Source: an uncultured Flavobacteriales bacterium
Lineage (GTDB): Bacteria > Bacteroidota > Bacteroidia > Flavobacteriales_D > Parvicellaceae
Assembly (NCBI GenBank): GCA_943788755.1
Contig: CALSRM010000001.1
Span: 124,001-188,000 of the forward strand
Length of the DNA: 64,000 nucleotides
Direction of reading: 5' to 3'
Of this stretch, positions 12,201-24,214 are shown piece by piece (the stretch's first letter is position 1; every line of letters begins with the position of its first letter). The position numbers were made by a program, and so were the translations under genes. The notes beneath the pieces were generated by a model that was given only the letters and a program-made list of their open reading frames with translations, had not been told where the DNA came from and made no database searches.

Positions 12201-12595
12201 CCGTTACTTGATCTTAGATAGGCCGGGATTAATAATTCTCCAATCGAATCAGTAAGATAGTTTAAAAATTCAATTTTGAAAGAGAATTTATTATTGTAAA
12301 TTTCTCCTGTTTGAAACCACATTAGATCATTCCCTTCTACAATTTTATAAATTAATGTTCCTTTTAATTTCTTGTCATTCCATTTTGTTTTAAAGCTATA
12401 ACCATCGTAACATGTTATTCCGTCTTGAGTTCCAAACCACATATAGCCTTTACTATCTTTCAAACAACTTACTACACTTTGACTGGGAAGACCTTCTCTT
12501 TCGGTATAATTTTTAAACCGATAGTTGTTTTGCCCAAAGAAAGTTTGGACCAGAAGAATAAATAATATTGCTAAGAGTAACCTGGAGCATTTCAT
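9287..12595 (-). CDS. Two-component-regulator propeller sensor with SpoIIE PP2C phosphatase output
   Basis: A 1102-residue transmembrane sensor. After a signal peptide (cleavage near GQNNY) comes a long beta-propeller of two-component-regulator repeats, beginning GLPSQSVVSCLKDSKGYMWFGTQDG. A Y_Y_Y domain (YAYQLKGLENEWSYA, LAPGSYTFEVKAAN) follows at about 690-780. One membrane segment is at about 786-808, then a coiled coil (TKELAEKHTESEKNRLL), then a SpoIIE/PP2C phosphatase with SGDFYW near 893, DSTGHGVPGA and TDGFQDQ. Such proteins sense an extracytoplasmic cue and dephosphorylate an anti-anti-sigma factor; no such partner is in the window. The gene sits directly next to the left end of the integrative element. 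Confidence 0.9.
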   Translation of the reverse strand: MKCSRLLLAILFILLVQTFFGQNNYRFKNYTEREGLPSQSVVSCLKDSKGYMWFGTQDGITCYDGYSFKTKWNDKKLKGTLIYKIVEGNDLMWFQTGEIYNNKFSFKIEFLNYLTDSIGELLIPAYLRSSNGLKFTNVIADIKQINSDHLLYTACNKLFINNLKTTTLDSIEFKDVLNIDLSDTIAFRFIKDVEKPTLFFEKGIIEFNPDLKGSKFIEFNFANEKENLKNYTRHNSDTLLFISNLNNFYFYVESAQEYVYWFTDNSLRFDKLELSKMTYSKKRELFMVVDGSALINYDLSKKRKVNLKDMIMILDPSKNHQQQPSIADIHYDGNNCFWAVSIDRGVFKLNYKHQKIKTFEITKKNYEELSILNVVQIDSSLLLSTNFGLLEYQIKNDSLFPFSFKVKNLPGSMLSKKDEMGSFYYDFEKRILWYGNNKFLVKYNIDNKTGEFINEVENYCVDLVVQDNKTIWISDLGHGLLNKSIFSDSLKYFKYGESDYPDQTNVISALKLKDQFLFISTNTAGLVKLNTKTLKFSTIGSDYEGTTLGLDIVNDSIWVSTWSNGLLCFDANTGLLIDSIKKENGLPSNATSMIKIDVLGNLWATSSFGLIQFDKNSRKIKVFNKKHGLKKVDLLSSTSKISENQNGDFFMAYNNVIYSWNPLDFINDTTLPNVYFDNIYFNYKNSQEKIEILNNQYQKLKNNYALTYNQNNITFEFSAIHFSSERNIEYAYQLKGLENEWSYANERSIEYSRLAPGSYTFEVKAANSDGIWSKPISFSFNITPPFWRTWWFIPLCIFILCLLIYFMLRIRTRQLKSRQIELEKTVTRRTKELAEKHTESEKNRLLVEEKNKEISDSINYAERIQRSFLATDELLNANLNEYFVFFQPREAVSGDFYWASKLNNGDFAIVNADSTGHGVPGAIMSILNICSIEEAIKEGSTAPNEIFNKTRKFIIERLKKDGSSEGGKDGMDASIICFDFENSKFSYTAAQNPIWVIRNGKLTEIKPEKMPLGKHDKDKIPFVGGEFEIQQGDQIYTLTDGFQDQFGGPKGKKFMVKKMREFVLSISHLPMEEQHQKIREVFSNWKGDIEQVDDVCVIGIKI

Positions 12596-12744
12596 TCAAC
12601 TAAAATAATGAATTAACTTTATTTGATTTTTCTTACTTAAACTTTTTAACAGTAAAAAGAAAATTCATTGAGATGGTTTCTAAGCATATTTCTTTTCTTC
12701 TGAATTCTATTAGGGTTTATTCTTCTGGAAATTCCCATAATTTT

Positions 12745-12819
12745 TTCACTAAACAAAAAGACACAAAAAAAGCCCAATCTATAGTAGATTGAGCTTTAAA
12801 AGTCGGGGTGGCAGGATTC
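12745..12819. repeat. Distal attachment-site repeat (tRNA-Pro 3' fragment)
   Basis: All 75 bases are identical to 22679-22753. It contains the last 17 nt of tRNA-Pro and the tRNA terminator hairpin but no tRNA body. Sequence to its left is chromosomal, to its right is the element. Confidence 0.93.
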
Positions 12820-12973
12820 TCTCTGCTATCCCTGTATCTCTTATTTGTATTAACTTTTAGCTTTTAATTAACCTACTTGTTCACTAAAAATGCCACTAAA
12901 ACTCATCTTCTCCGTTATTATCAAATATAATAATTTTGTTGTTAATTTATTATTTAATGGCTATTGTTTTAGT
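12820..12973. other. Element left end, non-coding
   Basis: There is no gene between the left attachment repeat and the first element gene. The stretch holds one GTTCACTA site (12879-12886), the same motif that occurs three times beside the integrase gene, and AT-rich DNA. It probably carries an integrase arm site and the 3' end of the leftmost transcript. Confidence 0.5.
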
Positions 12974-13372
12974 TTAATTATAATTTACAATTTTTATTCT
13001 AGTAGCAATTGAGTATGACCCATCCATAGGGTAAATATAAACTACTTCTTCTTCTTCATAGTTAAATATAAATAAATACTTATTTCCTTGATCACTTATA
13101 GTATAATAAACATCTTGTTCTACTTCATTAATAGTACTATCAATATAGTATGTTGATGTAAGATTATTATTATATGTTGAATGCTCAAATGATGTCTTTA
13201 AATCATTAAAAACAAATCCACTTATAAAGTTTGTATCATATCTACAATCTGAATATAATCCAGTTATATCATCACGAAAACATATTTCATATTCTGAGGT
13301 ATATACTCTTAATTGTGCTACACCTACCATCCCTAAGAATAGCAGTGCAACAGTGCTGAATATCTTTTTCAT
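12974..13372 (-). CDS. Small secreted protein of unknown function (element cargo)
   Basis: A 132-residue protein with a strong signal peptide (MKKIFSTVALLFLGMVGVAQ). The mature part is acidic and Tyr-rich, with two cysteines (in YEICFRDD and YSDCRYD) that could form a disulfide, and predicted beta strands such as YYTISDQGNKYLFIFNY. No family is recognised. It is the leftmost gene of the integrative element. It has the same orientation as the secreted protease gene but is separated from it by 279 bp in which I see no gene or clear signal, so co-transcription is not evident. Confidence 0.6.
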   Translation of the reverse strand: MKKIFSTVALLFLGMVGVAQLRVYTSEYEICFRDDITGLYSDCRYDTNFISGFVFNDLKTSFEHSTYNNNLTSTYYIDSTINEVEQDVYYTISDQGNKYLFIFNYEEEEVVYIYPMDGSYSIATRIKIVNYN

Positions 13373-13651
13373 AATTTTTGTTTTTAAAAGGTTATTAGGT
13401 TAATGTGCTAATATTAATAAGGAACATAATTAGAGTGAGAATATTTGGAGAAGAAAAGGAAGGAGAAATCCTAAGGGGGCATTTAGTGGCTTTGAGATTG
13501 TCTTAGAGAAGTAGGGGGTTGAGATGTTTGGCTGATGATTTAGAGCCGAGGGAATTACTAAGAAGATGTTGAACAAATTAAATTATGGAAGGCTAATTAT
13601 TTATGTGATTAGAGGTCAATTTACCTATGGTTACTTTATCATGTACTGGTT

Positions 13652-15130
13652 TTACCTAGCCTCTATTATGTATACAAATTCTTTAATGAATTTTACTTGT
13701 TCAGGTAAATTTAGACCAGATATAGCATTATCTGAACTAAATTTAAAATCCTTTTCCAAGGACATTGAAAGCATATTAAGGTAATTACTTTTAATTGAAT
13801 ATGAGGCATTTTCAGCACCTATGTGTTTTGCATTTATAACACCAATAATTTGACCATTTGAATTAAACATAGGACCACCACTATTGCCAGCTTGTACGGG
13901 AATAGACACTTGATAGGTAGTAATGTCTCCCTGAAAACCTGACTTTGAGCTAATTATTCCATTGGTAAGTTTAATCTCATCCCCCATGGAGGCTCTTAAA
14001 GGGTATCCTAGAGCAAAAACATTCTCTCCTACATCTGAGATGTTAAAGTTAAAATTATAAGGCAAGGTCCCTAATGTGGTGAATTTACTATCTGTTATTT
14101 TTAAAATTGCTAAGTCATTGTTAGCATCCTTAATGGTAACAACAGCTTTATACTCTTTATTAAAGTCACCTTTAATACCCTTAATTATTATATCTGATGA
14201 GTTTCCTATTACATGGTAGTTTGTCGCTATATATCCGTTAGATGAAATCGCAAACCCAGTACCAGAACTAAAAAGGCTTTTGGATCCGTTAATGGCAATA
14301 TTTTCAGAAGTAGGGAATAATTTTATATAAAGAACACTTTCTGCATCGTTATTCTGGTTGAATATGGTTTTTAGTCCACCCTGAACACATGTAACGTATA
14401 CATCATGATTTGTAGTTTTGTTTGCCATATACCAAGTGGCTTTATACAAGTTGGCAGTAGCAGTACTTGTTATTTTAGCTTTTATATCTCCTTCATTCCA
14501 AACATAAGAATCACCTCCAGATAGGTATATTATTTGAAGCGATCCATAATTGTTAACTAGCGCTAGTTTGTATTTGTTGTTACTATTTGTTGATTCATAA
14601 ATCCCTTCAGAATCTGACATTCCATTCTCTTTCCACATTTCTTTAATAGAAGCTTCTGTTAATAAAGTCTTTGGCGTAAATGGTATTTTTGGATTTTCAA
14701 TTCTGACGCCTTCCCATTTAAATCCATTATATATATCTTCCTTAATATCAAAATAAGTAGCTCCAGGGGGAACCCTTGGGAATACTAATACAAACGCTAT
14801 AATTTCCTTTGATTGATAAGTGTACTTTGTTCCAAACGTTGCTTTTTTAGAGTTAAATTGTTTATCAATTAACTCAATACTCTTAGCTCTATAACGTTTT
14901 CCAGAAACTTTATCTATTATGTAAGTATTATGAGAAAACTGAGCCCAAAGTGAATAAGTGTAATTATTATACATACTTATTGAAACCCTAGTGTCGTTAT
15001 TATAGCACATGACACTATTAACCGTGGTGCTTGGGTAACTTTTATAGACATTTGGCCCAATAGTGATGGCTTGAGAAAAATTTGTAAATGACAAAATACA
15101 GAAGCTTAAAACAAGGATGAACTTTACCAT
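13652..15130 (-). CDS. Secreted trypsin-like serine protease (S1C/DegP-like) in the element
   Basis: The protein has 492 residues and a signal peptide ending near FSQA. Residues 21-280 form a large, unrecognised, beta-rich N-terminal region. The trypsin-like domain occupies about 285-455 with all three catalytic residues visible: His306 (ATNYHVIG), Asp339 (ANNDLAILK) and Ser417 (AGNSGGPMF). There is no PDZ domain after it, unlike DegP/HtrA. The short tail ends in FIKEFVYIIEAR. An exported protease is unusual cargo for a 10-kb element; it may act on the host envelope or on competing cells or phage (inference). It reads leftward, away from the two small genes. Confidence 0.82.
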   Translation of the reverse strand: MVKFILVLSFCILSFTNFSQAITIGPNVYKSYPSTTVNSVMCYNNDTRVSISMYNNYTYSLWAQFSHNTYIIDKVSGKRYRAKSIELIDKQFNSKKATFGTKYTYQSKEIIAFVLVFPRVPPGATYFDIKEDIYNGFKWEGVRIENPKIPFTPKTLLTEASIKEMWKENGMSDSEGIYESTNSNNKYKLALVNNYGSLQIIYLSGGDSYVWNEGDIKAKITSTATANLYKATWYMANKTTNHDVYVTCVQGGLKTIFNQNNDAESVLYIKLFPTSENIAINGSKSLFSSGTGFAISSNGYIATNYHVIGNSSDIIIKGIKGDFNKEYKAVVTIKDANNDLAILKITDSKFTTLGTLPYNFNFNISDVGENVFALGYPLRASMGDEIKLTNGIISSKSGFQGDITTYQVSIPVQAGNSGGPMFNSNGQIIGVINAKHIGAENASYSIKSNYLNMLSMSLEKDFKFSSDNAISGLNLPEQVKFIKEFVYIIEAR

Positions 15131-15304
15131 TAGATCTGTTTTTATGTTGATTTATTTAGCACCTTGTTTAAGAAATAAGAGAAACAATATAATTATTCTA
15201 CTAAAGTACATCATTCAAGATTAGCTTTTAGCTATAATATAAAGAAAGTCTGCGAAAATAAAGTCTAAATCATTCTATTATAGGGTAGGCTTATACCTCC
15301 ACTC

Positions 15305-15547
15305 TTAATTCAAACTAAATAAGTAATAGGGATAAGGTCTTTTATTAACTACATACTGTAACTCTAGTTTTTTATTAATAGCTATAAACTGTACTTCATA
15401 TATAGCACCTTTCTTCAATAGTTTAAGGTTGTATTTGCTAGTAACATTAAATGGGCAGTGTTTTCTCCTTAAGCCACTAGGCGTGCTTACTAAAAGGCTA
15501 TTAAAATCACATTGTCTTCTTAGGGCAAGTAATAAATCATTATTCAT
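15305..15547 (-). CDS. Hypothetical protein, 80 residues (element cargo)
   Basis: A short basic protein starting MNNDLLLALRRQCDFNSLLV and carrying RRKHCPFNVTSKYNLKLLKK, then GAIYEVQFIAINKKLELQYV. The last part looks like a small beta sheet. No family is recognised. It follows the 120-residue gene on the same strand, but an intrinsic terminator (15572-15600) lies between them, so it needs read-through or its own promoter. It has a sensible ATG and a codon composition like its neighbours; still, a gene this short may be spurious. Confidence 0.45.
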   Translation of the reverse strand: MNNDLLLALRRQCDFNSLLVSTPSGLRRKHCPFNVTSKYNLKLLKKGAIYEVQFIAINKKLELQYVVNKRPYPYYLFSLN

Positions 15548-15571
15548 ATTAAGTTTTTAATTGTTTATGGA

Positions 15572-15600
15572 TAAAAAAAAGGGACTGCCGAAACAGTCCC
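15572..15600 (-). terminator. Intrinsic terminator after the 120-residue gene
   Basis: On the minus strand the perfect 7-bp stem GGGACTG / CAGTCCC around a TTTCGG loop is followed by eight T. It lies nine bases after the stop of the gene at 15609. Confidence 0.85.
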
Positions 15601-15608
15601 TAATTATA

Positions 15609-15971
15609 CTATGCCAATTGCTTGGACTTTACATCTTGAAAGACTTCACTTTCAAGCTCTTTGTTTTCTTGCTCATCTTCAGTGAGGTATTCAAACCTGT
15701 GATTGAGAGTGATTACTTCTTCCGTTTCAGGAATAGTGTACTCATAAGGATCGCACTTAACCTTACTAATCTTACCATCTAGTTCTTTGCCTATTAGTTT
15801 TTGACAAACTGCTTCACTAAATGTTGATGTTACAGAGCTTCTGAGTGCCGTGGCATAATATTTACCTGTCTCAGTGCTTTTAACCATTTCCAAGTCTCCT
15901 TCAAGGATTAAAACATGGAAAATTTCCCCTCCAGAATTCTGACGAGGAACAAAATCTACAATTGTTACCAT
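15609..15971 (-). CDS. Conserved-looking small cytosolic protein, element-borne
   Basis: A 120-residue acidic protein. The N-terminal half alternates strands (MVTIVDFVPRQN, GEIFHVLILEGDLEMVKS) and contains KYYATALRSSVTSTFSEAVC; the C-terminal half has KISKVKCDPYEYTIPETEEV and a charged, disordered end. The strand pattern could be a small beta barrel of OB type, which would suit a nucleic-acid-binding accessory factor, but I cannot name the family and this is inference. It diverges from the helicase gene across a 189-bp region full of inverted repeats, so it may be the element's regulator or replication accessory protein. Confidence 0.6.
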   Translation of the reverse strand: MVTIVDFVPRQNSGGEIFHVLILEGDLEMVKSTETGKYYATALRSSVTSTFSEAVCQKLIGKELDGKISKVKCDPYEYTIPETEEVITLNHRFEYLTEDEQENKELESEVFQDVKSKQLA

Positions 15972-16160
15972 AATATAATTTTTAAGTATTTATTGATGGG
16001 GGGGACTTTCCCTCCCAGAACTTAATGGGAGTTACTTATCTAGAAGGAGTGCACTTTCAATAAAGTTTTTGAAAAAAATAAAAAATCGTGAAAATGATTT
16101 TTGTTAGATAATGCCAAGTAATAATTATTAACTTTCGGTATTAAAACAGATTAAAGAATA
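15972..16160. promoter_or_regulatory. Divergent intergenic region with stacked inverted repeats
   Basis: Between the 120-residue gene and the helicase gene lie several small inverted repeats: CTCCCA (16012-16017) with TGGGAG (16026-16031), ACTTT/AAAGT (16053-16066), TTTCAA/TTGAAA (16055-16074), and an AAAATC/GATTTT hairpin around 16081-16101. They may be operators for the two divergent transcripts or part of a replication origin. No consensus is recognised. Confidence 0.35.
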
Positions 16161-19100
16161 GTGACAGACAAACTCATATCATCAGTAAACAATTGGAAAT
16201 CATTAAAGGCTTCTATTGATTTAGAAAGCAAGAAGGTAAAAGGAGATGCTTTTGAATTACTGACAAAGCTCTACTTTAAAGTAGCTCCTAAATTTCAGGA
16301 CTTATATGATGATGTTTGGCTACTTTCAGAACTACCATCTAAGGTGCTGGAAGAATTAGGTATTCCTTCTCACGATTTAGGAATAGACTTAATACTAAGA
16401 GCTGGAAAGGAGTATCACGCAGTACAATGTAAATACCATTCTGATAAGAGTAAATCAGTCACCTTTTCAGAAGTAGCTACTTTCATCTCTTTAGTAGAGA
16501 GTAATGATAAGATTACACAAGGGTATATCTGTTCTACTGCAGAATTAACATCCAAAAACTTTAACAAGCTTAATCTTTCAGACATGGTTCTGCTTATGTC
16601 AGATACATGGCAAGGGTTAGATAGTGAGTTTTTTAGTAGTGCAAAAGCACTTTTAAAAGGGAAGAAAAAGAGCCTACTACCATTTAAGCCAAGAGCACAC
16701 CAAACTAAGGCATTAAAACAAGCAGATAAGTACTTCAATAAAGAGAAACACACTAGAGGGAAGTTAATATTCCCATGTGGAGCTGGTAAAAGTTTAACAG
16801 GCTTTTGGTTAACACAAAAGTTAGCCTCAAAATCCACACTTATAGCAGTACCTAGTTTATCACTTGTAAAACAGACTTTAGAAGTCTACTTAAGAGAGAT
16901 AGTTGCCCACAAGAAGAAAGTTAAGTGGTTGTGTATCTGTTCTGATGAAGGAATAGGCAAAAATGATGATGTAGTTGTTTATACGCAAGATTTAGGCGTA
17001 CCCTGTGTTACAGATCCCGAGTACATAGAGAATTGGTTAGCGGAAAATGTAAATGAAGAGAAGGTTGTATTTACTACTTACCAAAGTGGTAGAATAATAG
17101 CAGAGATTTCTAAGAAGTTAGCTTTCACTTTTGATGTAGGGATTTTTGATGAAGCGCATAAAACAGTAGGCTCTGACAAGAAGCTATTCAGTCATTTACT
17201 TTTTAGTAAGAACATCTCTATAGCTAAAAGAATATTCATGACTGCTACTGAAAGGTTTTATGAAGGTTCTAAGGATGATATTATCTCTATGGACGATGAA
17301 GATATCTACGGAGATACGTTTGCTTTAATGAGCTTTAAGGAAGCTATAGAGCTTCAATTACTTACAGATTATAAAGTAATAACCATAGACATACAGAAGT
17401 CTGAAATAGCAGACTTTATTAGGGATAATAACCTAGTACAGTTAAATGACAAATGGAAAAAAGAAACAGAAGCTAGGTCTTTAGCATCTATGTTAGCTTT
17501 ACGTAAAGCAATGAAGCGTTTTAATATTAAAAACGCAGTATCATTTCATTCATCTATTGAAAAAGCAAGAAGAAACAAAGACTTACAGCAGTACATTACG
17601 GATACTTATGATTACCAACCTATAGATACCTATACCGTATCAGGAAAAGATGCTACTACCAAAAGGAATGACATAGTACAAGAGTTTGCTAAGTCAGATA
17701 AAGCTTTAATTACCAATGCACGTTGTTTAACAGAAGGTGTTGATGTACCAAACATAGATTGTATTGTTTTTGCAGACCCTAGAAAGAGTAAAGTAGACAT
17801 AGTTCAAGCATTGGGTAGAGCGTTAAGAAAAAAAGAAGGGAAAGATTGGGGTTATGTAATACTGCCTGTTATATATGATAACACAACCAATGAGATAGAT
17901 AATGACAACTTCAATGAAATACTACGTGTTGTTAGAGGTTTAGCAGCCAACGATGAAAGAATTATAGAGCATTTTAAGGATAAAGGAGAGATAAATACAA
18001 AAGCTAAAAAAGAGGTTGAAGAGCAGTTTAATTTTGAAGTGTTATCTGAATACATGGATGAAGGGGAACTCTCCAAACAACTGCAGATAAAGGTTTGGGA
18101 GAAGCTTTCTAAGTTTAATTGGATGGAGTTTGAGGAGGCGAGAGGTTTTGTTCGCCAGCTTAAACTTAAAAATCAGGCTGAATGGCGTGAGTTTAGTAAG
18201 TCCGATAAAAGACCATTTAATATGCCCACGAGACCACATGTTAATTATGTGAATGCGGGATGGGTAAGTTTAGGAGATTGGCTTGGGACTGGAACTGTTG
18301 CCACCCAAAATAAGTCATACAAAAGCTTTAAAGCGGCAAAAGACTGCATTCAGAAACTTAAAATAGGTTCAGCCAAAGACTGGTATTCATATGCAGATTC
18401 AAATGATAAACCAAAAGATATTCCATATCACCCAAATAGAGTCTACAAGAATGAAGGTTGGCTTAACTGGGGAGATTTTCTTGGTACTGGACTAGTTGCA
18501 AATTATAAAAGGAAATATGCTTCTTTTGATGAGGTGAAAAAGTATGCTTTGAATAATAAAATCACTAGTTCTTCAGAATGGAGGAAACACGGAAAAGAAG
18601 GGAAGTTACCATTTAATATTCCAGTTGCTATATGGGTTACTTATAAAGATGAAGGATGGAGCGGTTGGGGTGACTTTCTTGGTACCGGAATAATCGCAAC
18701 CAGCAATAGAGTCTTTCTTTCGTACAAAGAAGCAAAACACTTTGCTAGAAAACAAAAATTCAAAAAAATAAAAGAATGGTGGGATTTTGTGAAGTCCGAT
18801 AAGAAACCGGAAACAATTCCATATAATCCTTTAAGAACCTATAAGGGTAAGGGTTGGAATGGATGGGATGATTTTCTTGGAACTGAAGTTTTACATAACA
18901 AAAATAGAAAATTTAGGTCGTTTAATGAGGCAAGAGAATTTGCTCATAGCTTAAGCCTTGGTAAAAGAGCAGATTGGACTGAATACACAAAATATAATGA
19001 ATTGCCTTTTGATATCCCTGTTGGAGTTTATGGTGTGTATAAAGATAAAGGATGGATTAGCTGGGGAGATTTTCTTGGTACTGGAAAGGTGGCAGACAAA

Positions 19101-19286
19101 GATAAAGTCTTTTTGTCATTTAATTTGGCTAGAGAAATAGTGGTTAAACTGAAGCTTGCTAGTAGCAAGAAGTGGAAGGAATATATCAAATCTGGAAAAA
19201 GACCGAAAAACATACCCTCCGCTCCAAATGTTGTTTATAAAAACAAAGGTTGGAAAGGATGGGGAGACTTTTTAGGTAATGAGTAG
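16161..19286 (+). CDS. Mrr-type nuclease / SF2 helicase with six 66-residue C-terminal repeats
   Basis: A 1041-residue multidomain protein with a GTG start at 16161; the next in-frame Met is past residue 140, inside the nuclease domain. Residues 25-150: a restriction-endonuclease-like (PD-(D/E)xK, Mrr/HSDR) domain with GDAFELL, Asp75 in GIDLIL and Gln89-Cys-Lys91. Residues 170-620: SF2 helicase with Walker A CGAGKS (206-211), DEAH (330-333), TAT (361-363), LTEGVDVP (523-530) and QALGRALRK (549-557). Residues 655-1041: six repeats with the anchor GWxxWGDFLGTG, with Trp at 701, 767, 833, 899, 965 and 1031, exactly 66 apart. They resemble the integrase/helicase-associated repeats thought to bind DNA. 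The stop overlaps the next gene by 8 nt. Confidence 0.88.
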   Translation: MTDKLISSVNNWKSLKASIDLESKKVKGDAFELLTKLYFKVAPKFQDLYDDVWLLSELPSKVLEELGIPSHDLGIDLILRAGKEYHAVQCKYHSDKSKSVTFSEVATFISLVESNDKITQGYICSTAELTSKNFNKLNLSDMVLLMSDTWQGLDSEFFSSAKALLKGKKKSLLPFKPRAHQTKALKQADKYFNKEKHTRGKLIFPCGAGKSLTGFWLTQKLASKSTLIAVPSLSLVKQTLEVYLREIVAHKKKVKWLCICSDEGIGKNDDVVVYTQDLGVPCVTDPEYIENWLAENVNEEKVVFTTYQSGRIIAEISKKLAFTFDVGIFDEAHKTVGSDKKLFSHLLFSKNISIAKRIFMTATERFYEGSKDDIISMDDEDIYGDTFALMSFKEAIELQLLTDYKVITIDIQKSEIADFIRDNNLVQLNDKWKKETEARSLASMLALRKAMKRFNIKNAVSFHSSIEKARRNKDLQQYITDTYDYQPIDTYTVSGKDATTKRNDIVQEFAKSDKALITNARCLTEGVDVPNIDCIVFADPRKSKVDIVQALGRALRKKEGKDWGYVILPVIYDNTTNEIDNDNFNEILRVVRGLAANDERIIEHFKDKGEINTKAKKEVEEQFNFEVLSEYMDEGELSKQLQIKVWEKLSKFNWMEFEEARGFVRQLKLKNQAEWREFSKSDKRPFNMPTRPHVNYVNAGWVSLGDWLGTGTVATQNKSYKSFKAAKDCIQKLKIGSAKDWYSYADSNDKPKDIPYHPNRVYKNEGWLNWGDFLGTGLVANYKRKYASFDEVKKYALNNKITSSSEWRKHGKEGKLPFNIPVAIWVTYKDEGWSGWGDFLGTGIIATSNRVFLSYKEAKHFARKQKFKKIKEWWDFVKSDKKPETIPYNPLRTYKGKGWNGWDDFLGTEVLHNKNRKFRSFNEAREFAHSLSLGKRADWTEYTKYNELPFDIPVGVYGVYKDKGWISWGDFLGTGKVADKDKVFLSFNLAREIVVKLKLASSKKWKEYIKSGKRPKNIPSAPNVVYKNKGWKGWGDFLGNE
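18123..19283 (+). repeat. Six tandem 198-bp coding repeats in the helicase gene
   Basis: The six units have a strict 198-bp period, set by the anchor Trp codons at 18261, 18459, 18657, 18855, 19053 and 19251. The units are well diverged in sequence but never change length. Each unit follows the pattern SFxEAxxFAxxLxLxSxxEW, then P-x-x-IP and Y-x-x-x-GW-x-x-WGDFLGTG. Confidence 0.9.
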
Positions 19287-20505
19287 ATATAATTTTTGTA
19301 TACCATCAAATGTTTCCAGAACTCAAATTTTGAGTGATTTAGAGGATTCTAAACTATGGAAAGTATATTATTTTCTAAATCTGCTTTATGAAGTACCTGT
19401 AAAGAAGCAGAAAGTTTATGATAAATATTTGATAAATGGTTGGGTGCAATTACACAGCGTTCTCTTGAAAAAAGGCATAGGAAATGACTATAAAGAAATT
19501 ATTGATTTTTTAATAGGAAAAGGTATAGTTTTAAAAAGAGAGGATAAAAAGTATAAAGTAAAAAAATATAGTTCAAGTTTTGGTTTGTCAGAAGAATATA
19601 GTTTAGACGTAAAGGCGGTTGAAGCAAATGTGCCAACTAAAGTATTTAATAGGTTGAAAACCACTAGAGCAAAAGGAAGATTTGAAATTCCTTATTTATG
19701 GAAATGGCTCTATGATCCCAAGTTTACAATAGACATTTCAGGCGCATTACAACAGTTGATTAACGAGCAATTGGACAATAAGTACAAAGAGAGGTTGTTA
19801 AGGTATAAATTGTACTCTATTATGAACAAGTCATTTTATTTTACAAGAGATACTAGCGGAAAACGATTACATACCAATATTTCACATTTGAACAAAGATT
19901 ACAAAAAGCACCTTCGTTATGATGGTCAAAAATTGGTAGAAATAGACATAGAGAATAGTCAACCTTTTTTTAGCTTGTTAATTCTGCAAAAGTTTTTTGG
20001 CAAGTCTTTAAATCAGCTTAAAGAATTGAAAGGTGAATATAATGATGTCCCGTTGTATATAAGTTTGGTAGAGAGTGGCCTTATTTATGAGCACATGGAT
20101 ATGGAGTACATGTCTTCAAAATATGAAAAACCTACCTTGGAATTTAAGGATATGCGAGATAAGATAAAAAATCGCTTTTGGAAAGTGTTGTTCTCTAAAG
20201 AAGAATCATTTAAAGGCTTGAGAAAAGTCTTTTCAGAGGCATTTCCTAATGTTTATAATGCATTCATTCCTAAAACAAAGAGAGGACTTAACTTTGCAGA
20301 GCAGCTGCAAAGAGCAGAGTCAAATATTATATTAGATAAAGTTTGCAAAAATATAAACAGGGAATTTCCTGAATGTCCGATGTACACAGTTCACGATAGC
20401 ATACTTACAATTTCAGAATATGCAGACGATGTTAAAGCAATATTAAAAGCGGAAATATTTAAAACAATAGCAACAGTACCTAACTTACACACTAAACAAT
20501 TATAA
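19279..20505 (+). CDS. Divergent family-A (T7-like) polymerase palm-domain protein
   Basis: A 408-residue protein whose ATG overlaps the helicase stop by 8 nt, so the two are translationally coupled. The N-terminal 120 residues look like a winged-helix-type region. In the C-terminal half I see the layout of a PolA/T7 RNAP palm: a motif A candidate, LVEIDIENSQPFF with Asp223; an O-helix-like RDKIKNRFWKVLF (293-305) with Arg/Lys; SEAFPNVYNAF and EQLQRAESNIIL (341-352); and a motif C candidate TVHDSI with His372-Asp373. Asp223 and Asp373 would be the metal ligands. The length is half that of a PolA core, with no exonuclease domain. The identity is my inference from motif order; a structural match would be needed to settle it. 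Confidence 0.6.
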   Translation: MSRYNFCIPSNVSRTQILSDLEDSKLWKVYYFLNLLYEVPVKKQKVYDKYLINGWVQLHSVLLKKGIGNDYKEIIDFLIGKGIVLKREDKKYKVKKYSSSFGLSEEYSLDVKAVEANVPTKVFNRLKTTRAKGRFEIPYLWKWLYDPKFTIDISGALQQLINEQLDNKYKERLLRYKLYSIMNKSFYFTRDTSGKRLHTNISHLNKDYKKHLRYDGQKLVEIDIENSQPFFSLLILQKFFGKSLNQLKELKGEYNDVPLYISLVESGLIYEHMDMEYMSSKYEKPTLEFKDMRDKIKNRFWKVLFSKEESFKGLRKVFSEAFPNVYNAFIPKTKRGLNFAEQLQRAESNIILDKVCKNINREFPECPMYTVHDSILTISEYADDVKAILKAEIFKTIATVPNLHTKQL

Positions 20506-20585
20506 TATAATTACTATTATGTTTCCGTTTGTTATTTAAGTTGTTGTAAATCAGGATATTGTTATTTTATTAATTTCATTTCCTT

Positions 20586-21371
20586 TTAGGTAAATTGCAA
20601 AATAATTGTGGCAATTACGTCAAAGTCCATACAAGCGTCAAATTCTATTTTAGGGCTGAACATTCCTTTTTTCTCTCTTATTCTAATTAGTTGTGGATTA
20701 ACTGAGCCCGTGTGACCTTCTATTCCCTTTTGCACCCCTATCCATAGTAGATCATTTTTATCTGATAACCCAATACTCAACCTCTTCTTTCCTTTTATGA
20801 TAAACCCTTCTTTAGAAATAATAATGTCATCACCATATCTAATTTGACCTTTTTCCTCAAGTTCTCTCTTGTAGAGATCATATCTTTGGTCAAAACTAGC
20901 TTTTCTTATATAATTTCCAATTCTGAATAATTCTTCTACTTTTCTAATTTTTTCTTTTTGCCAGGAGTTGGAAGATGACATGGCAATTATTATGTCCTCT
21001 GGATATTTGTTTGAATAGTTAAAACCTATTTGCAAACTAGAAAGCCTAGAAGTGATTAAGTTGTAGGTGCTAGAACTGCTAGCTATAGTAAGCCTAGAGA
21101 TGTCTGTAATAGAATATGACGTTCCTCTATATGATATCTTATTATGAGTTACAGTAAGTCCTTCAAATTGCCAAGGGTTATTTTCTGTAGGTGGAGTAAC
21201 ATAGTTGTTTGGTGATGAGCCTCTTAGGTTGTTAATTATGGTCTTAGCTCCTCTTTTTAGTGATTCTACTTTCTCATTAAGCTTGTGTTTTGAATCTAAC
21301 CACTCTCCACAATGCTTACATTTTAAAGCATCATCTTTTATTTCTTCTTTGCAAAATTTACAAGTTGCCAT
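20586..21371 (-). CDS. Zinc-ribbon protein of unknown function (element cargo)
   Basis: The 261-residue protein starts with a zinc ribbon: Cys4-x2-Cys7 and Cys18-x2-Cys21 (CKHCGEW). A polar linker (about 25-65) leads to a beta-rich region (NPWQFEGLTVTHNKISYRG, DISRLTIASSSS), reminiscent of PH-like domains, and a second similar segment GDDIIISKEGFIIKGKKRLSI near 175-210. No signal peptide or membrane segment. It lies 51 bp downstream of the integrase stop on the same strand, so it may be co-transcribed with the integrase. Function unknown; a DNA- or membrane-binding adaptor is possible. Confidence 0.65.
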   Translation of the reverse strand: MATCKFCKEEIKDDALKCKHCGEWLDSKHKLNEKVESLKRGAKTIINNLRGSSPNNYVTPPTENNPWQFEGLTVTHNKISYRGTSYSITDISRLTIASSSSTYNLITSRLSSLQIGFNYSNKYPEDIIIAMSSSNSWQKEKIRKVEELFRIGNYIRKASFDQRYDLYKRELEEKGQIRYGDDIIISKEGFIIKGKKRLSIGLSDKNDLLWIGVQKGIEGHTGSVNPQLIRIREKKGMFSPKIEFDACMDFDVIATIILQFT

Positions 21372-21422
21372 TTATTGCTTGTTTTGTACAATATTTTTTT
21401 CAATGTATAGAAAATTTATGTG

Positions 21423-22598
21423 TCAGACAATTAATTTAGCAAAATCCTGAGATACCTTCTCGTTCATTATCTGACCATAAATTTGTGTACTTCTTATGCT
21501 GTTATGTCCCAATACTTTTTGTAGCGTTTCCAATGGCACTCCATTAGCTAGTGCTATAGTGGTGGCAAAGGTGTGTCTTCCAGAGTGGTAGCTTAAGTTC
21601 TTGTTTAGGTTTACTAGTTTTGCTAGTTTTTTTAAGTTCCTATTAATTGCTTGGTTACTATATATGGGAAAAGTCTCTTTGTAATGTGTTAAATACCTAT
21701 TCAATATAGCTATTGCTTTCGGAAGCAAAGGAACTTCCTCTTTAGTTCCAGTTTTTTGTCTTGTAGTACTCAACCATAGGTTGTCATCAAAGCCTACTAT
21801 TATATTGCTCTTAGTAAGGTTCTTAACTTCTATGTAAGATAGTCCTGTATAACATGCTAAAAGAAAAAAGTCCCTTGTGTTATTTAAGGTTTTATCTTGG
21901 AAAATAGCAGATTCTATGGTTTGCAATTCATGTTTGTTTAAATACTTGGGTAATACCTTTTTGAATTTAATTTTGTATGCTGATAAAGGGTTGTATTTAA
22001 GGCATTCTATTCTTATTCCGTAGTTGAGTATAGCTTTTAGTCTTTGGAGGTGTTTCATGGCTCCATTTTGCGTGCAAGAGGTATTTGTTTTTAGGTATTT
22101 TTCAAAGTAAACGGCAAACTTCATTGAAATACTTTCTAATGGTATTTCTTTTCTTTTGTAATCCTTTATCAAATACTTTTCTAACGCCCTATAAGTATAT
22201 CTGTAGTTCTTTAAGCTTCCTTCAGCTAGTTCTTTATCCATGTCTTTAATAAATACCTCTGTCAGTTGTATAATTCCATTTACTTTAATGTGTTTACCAA
22301 AATAAATATCTTTTAAAAGTTCAGCAGAAATAGGAGAGGAGTTCTTTCCTTTAAACTCAAAGTATAAATCTTTGAGTTTTTTATCTAGTTCATCTAAGGA
22401 TTGGTTTAAACTATCAGAGTATTCAGCTTTTGGGGATAACCTTTTGAACTCATTGTTCCAAAGTCCTTCTTTAGCTCTGATTTTTGTGGAAAACTCTGCT
22501 ATAGTTTTTCCAATTTTAATTCTGCAGTAAATCGGAATCCCTTTTTTACTCTTTCTGCCATTTCTTGGAATAAATGAAATTACACATGTGTTAACCAT
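21423..22598 (-). CDS. IntDOT-like tyrosine recombinase (element integrase)
   Basis: A 391-residue integrase with an arm-binding N-terminus (1-105), a core-binding SAM-like domain (105-210) and a catalytic domain (215-391). Catalytic residues visible: Lys282 (RQKTG), His338-x2-Arg341 (SYHSGRHTF), His365 (LGHNS) and nucleophile Tyr374 (STQIYGQ). The first catalytic Arg, normally in TGLR, is Ser254 (TGLSYIEV). The same substitution is known in IntDOT of Bacteroides CTnDOT, which marks this as the Bacteroidetes conjugative-transposon branch. It starts 81 bp from the attachment repeat, beside three GTTCACTA sites that may be arm sites or control its own promoter. Confidence 0.92.
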   Translation of the reverse strand: MVNTCVISFIPRNGRKSKKGIPIYCRIKIGKTIAEFSTKIRAKEGLWNNEFKRLSPKAEYSDSLNQSLDELDKKLKDLYFEFKGKNSSPISAELLKDIYFGKHIKVNGIIQLTEVFIKDMDKELAEGSLKNYRYTYRALEKYLIKDYKRKEIPLESISMKFAVYFEKYLKTNTSCTQNGAMKHLQRLKAILNYGIRIECLKYNPLSAYKIKFKKVLPKYLNKHELQTIESAIFQDKTLNNTRDFFLLACYTGLSYIEVKNLTKSNIIVGFDDNLWLSTTRQKTGTKEEVPLLPKAIAILNRYLTHYKETFPIYSNQAINRNLKKLAKLVNLNKNLSYHSGRHTFATTIALANGVPLETLQKVLGHNSIRSTQIYGQIMNEKVSQDFAKLIV

Positions 22599-22638
22599 AA
22601 TCCTTGTTTTAAATTAAACATTGTTATGGAGAAAAAGT

Positions 22639-22685
22639 GTTCACTAATATGTTCACTAGATGAACAAAATAGAGCTTGTTCACTA
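22639..22685. promoter_or_regulatory. Three GTTCACTA repeats, candidate integrase arm sites
   Basis: GTTCACTA occurs at 22639-22646, 22651-22658 and 22678-22685, between the integrase start and the attachment repeat, with the last copy reaching into it. A fourth copy is near the other end (12879-12886). Position and repetition fit arm-type binding sites of a tyrosine recombinase; the integrase promoter must also lie here. Confidence 0.5.
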
Positions 22686-22753
22686 AACAAAAAGACACAA
22701 AAAAAGCCCAATCTATAGTAGATTGAGCTTTAAAAGTCGGGGTGGCAGGATTC
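22679..22753. repeat. Proximal attachment-site repeat at the intact tRNA-Pro
   Basis: Identical over 75 bp to 12745-12819. It spans the last 17 nt of tRNA-Pro and its terminator. Because the repeat carries both, tRNA synthesis and termination survive the insertion. Confidence 0.93.
22698..22733 (-). terminator. Intrinsic terminator of the tRNA-Ser/tRNA-Pro operon
   Basis: On the minus strand AAAGCTCAATCTA pairs with TAGATTGGGCTTT (one G-U) around a CTA loop and ends in seven T. A second copy is stranded in the distal repeat (12764-12799). Confidence 0.88.
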
Positions 22754-22811
22754 GAACCTGCGATCTCCTGGTCCCAAACCAGGCGCCTTGACCGGACTGG
22801 GCCACACCCCG
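22737..22811 (-). tRNA. tRNA-Pro (TGG anticodon)
   Basis: A 75-nt cloverleaf: the acceptor stem CGGGGTG pairs with CACCCCG, discriminator A; the anticodon loop reads TTTGGGA with anticodon TGG; the T arm is GCAGGTTCGAATCCTGC. CCA is not encoded. It lies 63 nt after tRNA-Ser(GCT), and the shared terminator follows. The 3' 17 nt are duplicated at the far end of the integrative element, so this gene is its integration target. Confidence 0.95.
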
Positions 22812-22874
22812 AAAAATCGGTTTTGCAAAGGAAAGCATTTTTGTGTAACCACAAAGCACTTTCCGAATTAATTG

Positions 22875-22962
22875 CGGAGAGACAGGGATTCGAACCCTGG
22901 GTACCCTTTTGGGGTACGCTTATTTAGCAAACAAGTCCTTTCGGCCACTCAGGCACCTCTCC
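22875..22962 (-). tRNA. tRNA-Ser (GCT anticodon)
   Basis: An 88-nt class II tRNA with a long variable arm (GCGTACCCCAAAAGGGTAC). The acceptor GGAGAG pairs with CTCTCC, discriminator G; the anticodon loop TTGCTAA carries GCT, reading AGC/AGU codons. It is first in a two-tRNA operon with tRNA-Pro. Confidence 0.94.
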
Positions 22963-22994
22963 GTATGTAAAGATCATTTCCCTTAAAGGGATTG

Positions 22995-23024
22995 CAAAAA
23001 TAACACAGTTTTTGAAAACACAAA
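22995..23024 (-). promoter_or_regulatory. Promoter of the tRNA-Ser/tRNA-Pro operon
   Basis: On the minus strand, TTTG (23021-23024), an 18-bp spacer and TATTTTTG (22995-23002) match the Bacteroidota housekeeping promoter. It lies 33 bp before tRNA-Ser. Confidence 0.75.
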
Positions 23025-23077
23025 CCTCTTGTGGCTATTTTATAAAAAAAAGATGAAATAAAAATGAAAAGAGACTG

Positions 23078-24214
23078 TTAAGTTACACCCCGGTAAACAT
23101 CAAGCAGTTGATTCGTTAGCTCTTCGGAATCGAATTTTTTTACGTATTCCAGTCCTTTTTCAGACATTAACTTTTGTTGAGAAGGATTCTCCAATAGTTC
23201 ATCAATCGTTTTTCCTAATTCTTCAAAGTTATTCGTGTCCAAATAAATACTATCTGGACCTCCAGCTTCAGGAAAACAACCTCCTTGTGTTGTGATTACG
23301 GGTATTCCAGAGTTAAGTGCTTCTATAATTGGGATTCCAAAGCCTTCAAATACGGATGGGTAAACAAAAATAGTAGACAATTGATAGATTGCAGGAAGTT
23401 GATCCATGGTTACATCCTTTAAAAAGATAAAACGGTCTTCATCAATTTTTAGCTTCTGCATTTGGACTTTTAAAAAGTTAAAATATTTCGTCTTTCTGCC
23501 AACAACAACAATTGGTAAGTCGTTTTTCATTAATGGAATTGCTTGAAGTAATGCATTCAAATTTTTACGTGTTTCAATCGTACCTACATTCAGAATAAAT
23601 TCATCTGGCAGATTGAAATTTGTTTTAATGTGTTGTTTTATTTCTTTAGAATATTCCTTTTTAAAATTCTCATGGCAAGTTTGGTAGATCACCTTGATTT
23701 TTTCTTCAGGTACTTTATAGTATTGAACTATGTCTCGCTTAGTCTGCTCGCTTATAGCAATTACCACATCCGAATTTCGAGAAGCATACTTAAACTTAAT
23801 ATTGTGAATCCTTCTGTCTATTGCTCTATAATTCCGAGGGTATCTTCTGAAAATTAAGTCATGTATCGTAACCACATATTTAATCCTTTCAGCACCAAAC
23901 TTTCTTCTTCGCGGTATTTCATTACTTAATCCATGAAATACTTCAATACTGTCTTTTAGTAAGAATTTTTCCAAATTTATGGATCTCCAAAAACCTTTAA
24001 ACGTTTTATGGATAGGCGTTTCGGGAAAACGTTTGTGAACATTTTCCTTTCCCTCAATAAAAGCGAAACGCGGGTTTTTGGCAGATTTAGGGCTGTAGAT
24101 AAAGAATTCATCCACAGAATCGCTTTCCAGTAAACTTTTAATCAAGTCTCTACTGTAATTACCTAAACCAGTATAGTTGTGGTAGGCTCTTTTAGCGTCA
24201 AATCCAATTTTCAT
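23078..24214 (-). CDS. Glycosyltransferase family 4 (GT1-type fold)
   Basis: A 378-residue GT-B enzyme with two Rossmann-like halves. The N-terminus MKIGFDAKRAYHNYTGLGNY holds the acceptor-side glycine loop typical of GT4 mannosyl/glucosyltransferases. The C-terminal half has the donor-binding ETRKNL, VVVGRK and the retaining-enzyme motif SVFEGFGIPIIEALNSGIP (E-x7-E equivalent). It transfers a nucleotide-activated hexose, probably to a lipid-linked or polysaccharide acceptor at the inner membrane. It is 26 bp downstream of dapD on the same strand, which may mean co-transcription without a shared pathway. Confidence 0.88.
   Translation of the reverse strand: MKIGFDAKRAYHNYTGLGNYSRDLIKSLLESDSVDEFFIYSPKSAKNPRFAFIEGKENVHKRFPETPIHKTFKGFWRSINLEKFLLKDSIEVFHGLSNEIPRRRKFGAERIKYVVTIHDLIFRRYPRNYRAIDRRIHNIKFKYASRNSDVVIAISEQTKRDIVQYYKVPEEKIKVIYQTCHENFKKEYSKEIKQHIKTNFNLPDEFILNVGTIETRKNLNALLQAIPLMKNDLPIVVVGRKTKYFNFLKVQMQKLKIDEDRFIFLKDVTMDQLPAIYQLSTIFVYPSVFEGFGIPIIEALNSGIPVITTQGGCFPEAGGPDSIYLDTNNFEELGKTIDELLENPSQQKLMSEKGLEYVKKFDSEELTNQLLDVYRGVT

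Follow-up and report, generated by a model that had tools for sequence, protein, structure and literature searches.

An uncultured Flavobacteriales bacterium carries, in the 64,000-nucleotide stretch analysed here (the window), a 408-aa open reading frame (P0001) that resembles the catalytic palm of a family-A polymerase. The locus raises two questions: whether so small a protein is a polymerase, and what such an enzyme would do where it is found. The open reading frame is genuine, and Asp223 (in EIDIENSQ), Arg293-x3-Lys297 and His372-Asp373-Ser374 occur in the order and spacing that a sequence-only reading had claimed for them. That reading also placed a Q-ES segment between motifs A and C. 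The segment is present, but its spacing is Q-x2-ES and not Q-x3-ES. EIDIENSQ is correct for motif A in this protein, and the string best kept across homologues is D-x-x-N-S-Q-P.

Sequence libraries give little help with P0001. The single protein found no convincing match in Pfam, NCBIfam, PHROG, PADLOC or PDB sequences, and a sequence-library search with it gave no match to Pfam DNA_pol_A (PF00476). Phmmer and profile searches of PDB sequences returned nothing useful. For 48 relatives, 22 families were listed and PF00476 was not one of them, a sequence-library result that says nothing on the fold. Matches to the PADLOC 'Cyclase' model (0.0028) and to Pfam Glyco_transf_61/ASA5 (0.33) were rejected as chance level. 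The family itself is more informative. Its conserved set comprises R196, D223, N226-S227-Q228-P229, Y270, K297, Q344, E347, H372 and D373 (142 homologues, 100 of them non-redundant at <90% identity). Among the 100 non-redundant homologues, Arg196, Lys297, Glu347 and Asp373 are kept in 100%, Asp223 in 99%, and Gln344 and His372 in 98%; position 293 is Arg in 66% and Lys in 27%. Because key residues are kept at 98-100% in 100 homologues, the motif set is, on this alignment, not due to chance. At Asp+5, where Pol I has its ribose gate, P0001 has Gln228 and not Glu.

An AlphaFold2 model of P0001, built with 48 sequences, reached a mean pLDDT of 89.9 and a pTM of 0.88. In VIA-align, residues 133-408 superpose on human Pol theta (9au5) with Z 15.1 and an rmsd of 3.2 Å over 246 residues, and on apPOL, Bst, KlenTaq and T7 DNAP with Z 14-15. 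Taq and Bst Pol I are the first-ranked Foldseek matches of the model. The structure prediction and search proposed in the sequence-only reading thus returned the T7/PolA-like palm that it expected, and the superposition would place Asp223 and Asp373 close together in space. The best 50 structural matches are DNA polymerases throughout; T7 RNAP chains are not among these 50, which excludes nothing. In BFVD, two viral proteins rank first (409 and 403 aa, TM 0.76 and 0.66), ahead of compact phage proteins of 400-450 aa, one of them from a Rheinheimera barbavirus. The model and the alignment to family-A polymerases also bear out the proposed absence of an exonuclease domain and of a full thumb: the predicted thumb position holds at most a short helix pair (153-163 and 168-182) ahead of the hairpin, much shorter than the thumb of Pol I. 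Residues 1-132 have no structural match. The order of elements in the DSSP string of this N-terminal region (helix, strand, helix, two-strand wing) suggests a resemblance to a winged helix. The fold and the active site are well supported, and P0001 is almost certainly a family-A polymerase with an intact active site. The features of the protein and of the surrounding element are collected in Table 1.

Table 1. Features of the polymerase gene and of the element that carries it, in window coordinates
Feature	Position	Strand	Basis
Integrative element, about 9.9 kb between repeats	12745..22753	.	Direct repeats and empty site in G002
Left att copy, 75-bp perfect direct repeat	12745..12819	.	Single copy in same-genus empty site
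132-aa ORF, no convincing family	12974..13372	-	
Trypsin-like/HtrA-type protease, probable cargo	13652..15130	-	Trypsin_2 2.9e-23
80-aa core gene, related to 80-83 aa gene of related elements	15305..15547	-	
OB-fold, SSB/PriB-like protein, 120 aa (likely)	15609..15971	-	AlphaFold2 and structural matches
Mrr_cat_2 nuclease, ResIII/Helicase_C SF2 helicase and C-terminal repeats of about 66 aa	16161..19286	+	
Compact family-A polymerase (P0001), 408 aa	19279..20505	+	ATG at 19279, stop at 20505
N-terminal domain, residues 1-132, mixed alpha/beta, unmatched	19279..19674	+	Model
Palm/fingers core, residues 133-408	19675..20502	+	VIA-align Z 14-15 vs family-A DNA polymerases
Arg196, template-side Arg of beta hairpin	19864..19866	+	100% in 100 homologues
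Motif A, Asp223 to Pro229 (D-I-E-N-S-Q-P)	19945..19965	+	Asp 99%, NSQP 98-99%
O-helix motif, Arg293-x3-Lys297	20155..20169	+	Lys 100%, Arg/Lys 93%
Gln344-x2-Glu347-Ser348 helix (Pol I 'NxPxQG' position)	20308..20322	+	Q344 and E347 98-100%
Motif C, His372-Asp373-Ser374	20392..20400	+	98/100/93%
261-aa protein, N-terminal zinc-ribbon-like motif	20586..21371	-	Below Pfam cut-off
Tyrosine recombinase (integrase)	21423..22598	-	Phage_integrase 3e-18
Right att copy, overlaps 3' end of tRNA-Pro(tgg)	22679..22753	.	Repeat comparison and empty site
tRNA-Pro(tgg) gene	22736-22811	-	Overlapped at 3' end by right att copy

P0001 is indeed far shorter than any standard PolA, as the sequence-only reading stressed, and compact, thumb-poor relatives of this kind have already been published (divPolA2, PMC11348598; TV-Pol, PMC2579912). 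When core profiles are compared, divPolA2 is the closest known group and TV-Pol comes second. The controls were column shuffles restricted to match columns, 60 per target; an earlier shuffle that included insert columns had given spuriously high scores in 2/30 cases per target, which were attributed to those columns. Against divPolA2 the core profile reached 98.1% (E 1e-13, score 91.6; shuffles at most 21). Against TV-Pol it reached 67% (E 5e-5, score 41; shuffles at most 17), the target being three sequences of the Ma-LMM01 MAP_030 group, taken as TV-Pol from size, motifs and nearby transposases only. The T7 RNAP group gave 4.7% with a score of 28 over 36 columns, and PolA gave 3.1%.

The divPolA2 proteins are phage polymerases of barbaviruses and of Vibrio and Aeromonas phages, reported to have neither thumb nor exonuclease and an unmatched N-terminal domain, and considered to be possible DNA polymerases for repair or RNA polymerases (PMC11348598). 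P0001 is similar in size to most divPolA2 members compared (about 420-435 aa), keeps motifs A, B and C in the palm, lacks an exonuclease and a standard thumb, and has an N-terminal domain of its own; in both groups, the phages that carry the gene also encode a regular polymerase. In the alignment, D223 falls on the motif-A Asp, K297 on the O-helix Lys, and Q228 on the Glu at Asp+5. Motif A differs, however, being D-x2-NSQP here and DFKAFE in divPolA2, and profiles of the two N-terminal domains gave no match (0.3%, six divPolA2 sequences). The sources differ as well: the present family occurs in Bacteroidota elements and huge phages, whereas the divPolA2 set compared comes from phages of gammaproteobacteria.

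TV-Pols are transposon-virus polymerases proposed as element prim-pols (PMC2579912). Like P0001, they have a compact core in proteins of 400-600 aa, belong to mobile elements with recombinases, and keep the Arg hairpin and RxxxK. Unlike them, P0001 has no D5-type helicase fused or adjacent, and the profile match is weaker than that to divPolA2. The one possible link to a D5-like helicase is a VapE-like helicase that occupies the same slot in a sister element. The family may overlap with published Bacteroidetes TV-Pols, which lay outside the sequence comparison. A search of 198 Bacteroidota genomes with the MAP_030 protein found no match, but this single-protein search lacked a positive control and is not informative. 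CcPol-MP of SCC elements makes DNA primers (PMC7581432), and this protein and the PolA-SSB primases of SCC and other Bacillota elements (PMC7581432, PMC10061031) share with the present case the combination of a family-A polymerase, an OB-fold protein and a helicase gene in one integrative element. CcPol, in contrast, closely resembles Pol I: its ribose gate is Glu (noted as Glu710 in Pol I; PMC7581432), and it retains remnants of an exonuclease. The Pol, SSB and helicase genes of CcPol-MP are adjacent; here the helicase overlaps the polymerase gene and the OB-fold gene lies 3.3 kb away on the opposite strand. With Pol I and T7 DNA polymerase, P0001 shares the palm and fingers fold, the catalytic Asp pair and the O-helix Lys, but it differs from them in its missing exonucleases, short thumb, HDS in place of HDE, and missing Pfam DNA_pol_A match.

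New here is the setting of the polymerase gene: an integrative element of 9.9 kb, whose empty site is resolved to the base in a congener. In the same-genus genome G002, the genes that flank the element are about 550 bp apart and the junction contains one att copy. Bases 1-575 of the junction match window positions 12245-12819 (99.7%), and bases 498-1099 match 22676-23278 (92%). The stop of the nuclease-helicase gene overlaps the polymerase start by 8 bp, and the two proteins may act together. As a conserved operon, this pair was rejected: no relative of this helicase, of any length, was found beside the polymerase in other elements, and no substantial one beside other family members. The C-terminus of the nuclease-helicase has five copies of a spaced 198-nt (66-aa) repeat (18238-19094). 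The protease of the element matches PADLOC RT-Protease models through its protease part only.

The model of the 120-aa protein (pLDDT 82) has the element order b-b-b-a-b-b, which is the OB order. Its PDB matches in Foldseek are nearly all SSB, PriB or PrgE and are weak (best E 0.05, VIA Z 5.1), so that an OB fold is likely, not certain. The protein is found again with related elements. The gene is present in 12/390 genomes, of which three (G000, G231 and G235) also carry the polymerase within 10 kb of it on one contig; neither gene, therefore, needs the other. The idea of an obligate partner was accordingly dropped, the OB-fold gene being found mostly without the polymerase.

Two sister elements of Bacteroidota, L177 (G459) and L186 (G235), have core DNA that is 93-97% identical. 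The core of this element type comprises an integrase, the 120-aa OB-fold protein, an AAA_24 ATPase, DUF3871, RadC and the 80-83 aa gene. Where L177 has a VapE-like helicase (PF05272, 4.6e-35) in the slot that follows the 83-aa gene, L186 has the polymerase. Past the slot, the two are 67% identical, and in L186 this stretch is part of the C-terminal extension that the polymerase ORF has there. The core also occurs without the polymerase. In this one pair, a polymerase and a helicase alternate in one slot, the pattern that exchangeable replication modules should give; the same argument was used to assign TV-Pols to replication (PMC2579912).

Viral contigs scanned with the single P0001 protein gave no relative, and an alignment-led scan (A2) of viral contigs found 105 family loci, many on contigs over 100 kb. 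By tblastn, relatives at 26-34% identity occur in phage records of 595-735 kb and on a Hymenobacter plasmid; this plasmid has its own replication initiator gene, and its family member was rejected as sole replication protein. In genome contigs, the alignment-led scan found 32 loci; most are from Bacteroidota, and single records come from a planctomycete and from Ignavibacteriales. Of 395 Bacteroidota genomes, 18 contained members by profile search. A related integrase lies within 3 kb in 10 of the 32 genome loci, different integrases adjoin the polymerase gene at L117 and L121, and several members lie outside recognisable integrase contexts. Six relatives match one unnamed PHROG; otherwise, the family has no model in Pfam, NCBIfam, PHROGs or PADLOC. 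Two uncharacterised co-directional neighbour genes are common to 64/85 and 67/85 phage loci. Of nine phage records tested, eight have PolB matches and the remaining one has PolC. Since a regular PolB or PolC is encoded too, the homologue is likely auxiliary in huge phages.

With respect to function, we lean towards P0001 as an element-encoded primase-polymerase or DNA polymerase, a replication enzyme of the element that would probably both prime and extend. We favour, as the probable activity, DNA-templated synthesis that uses dNTPs. The compact, exonuclease-free polymerase would serve replication of the tRNA-Pro element as follows. The element would excise, the overlapping helicase would open the duplex, and the OB-fold protein would hold the single strands. 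The polymerase would then make primers, extend them, or both, by two-metal catalysis at Asp223 and Asp373, like CcPol-MP. The priming step is inferred. The slot exchange and the related integrases near the loci suggest a role in element replication. The occurrence of relatives in huge phages and in other elements of Bacteroidota likewise suggests that P0001 initiates or performs the DNA synthesis of such elements. Against this role, the OB-fold gene is not part of a Pol-SSB-helicase operon, and the VapE-like slot partner is a helicase and not a polymerase.

Other functions can be read from the same evidence. The resemblance to T7 RNA polymerase noted in the sequence-only reading holds at the level of the motif (HDS in motif C) but is no proof of an RNA polymerase. 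We consider it improbable that P0001 is not a DNA polymerase but an RNA primase or a small DNA-dependent RNA polymerase, even though most relatives share D-x2-G-R with T7-like RNAPs, Gln228 stands in place of Glu at the ribose-gate position, and one homologue matches Pfam RNA_pol (0.0011) and a PHROG RNA polymerase (0.01). The alignment to the RNAP profile spans just 36 columns, a promoter-binding N-terminal domain was not detected, and the leading structural matches are all DNA polymerases, although these do not exclude RNAPs. An auxiliary repair or translesion polymerase, the option also raised for divPolA2, would agree with the missing proofreading domain and with the second, replicative polymerase of the phages. 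We consider it slightly less probable still, as both the location in a mobile element with an integrase and the exchange of the slot with a helicase of replication type speak for element replication.

The polymerase could also be defence cargo that answers phage infection with a protective or toxic nucleic acid, like the bacterial DRT/Abi reverse transcriptases. Some of the islands do carry conflict genes (an Eco57I-type methylase, a NACHT protein beside L131 and a CAP12-type TIR gene near L128), several members lack a recognisable integrase context, and the element core exists without the polymerase. Defence is nonetheless doubtful: PADLOC gives just the chance-level cyclase match, the slot is exchanged with a helicase, and the fixed neighbours at many phage loci fit a replication or repair role better.

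A bolder version of the replication role is a tentative one. P0001 might represent a separate, self-priming branch of family A, in which a new N-terminal domain replaces the thumb, a near-invariant Gln sits at the ribose gate, strands start with rNTPs or dNTPs, and the enzyme acts together with an OB-fold protein encoded elsewhere in the element. If so, one small enzyme, widespread in huge phages and Bacteroidota elements, could start strands. The family occurs in many elements of Bacteroidota and in phage genomes as large as 735 kb, yet it is nearly without library models. It connects three groups, divPolA2, TV-Pol and the CcPol primases. P0001 is a small candidate for how a family-A polymerase can dispense with a thumb, and perhaps with a primer.

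Some members depart from the compact form. In L115 (9767-11956) and L186 (14523-16580), the polymerase ORF is about 690-730 aa with a long C-terminal extension, and one alignment member, probably of this extended type, matches NUMOD1/GIY-YIG homing endonuclease domains. In the same-genus genome G003 (L003:1444-2518), the polymerase lies in two overlapping frames (285 and 108 aa) and is probably a broken copy. The 595-kb phage has a second compact PolA-like gene of 430 aa (L009:6627-7916; PF00476, 71.6 bits) directly downstream of its family member, and this phage record is the one that carries PolC.
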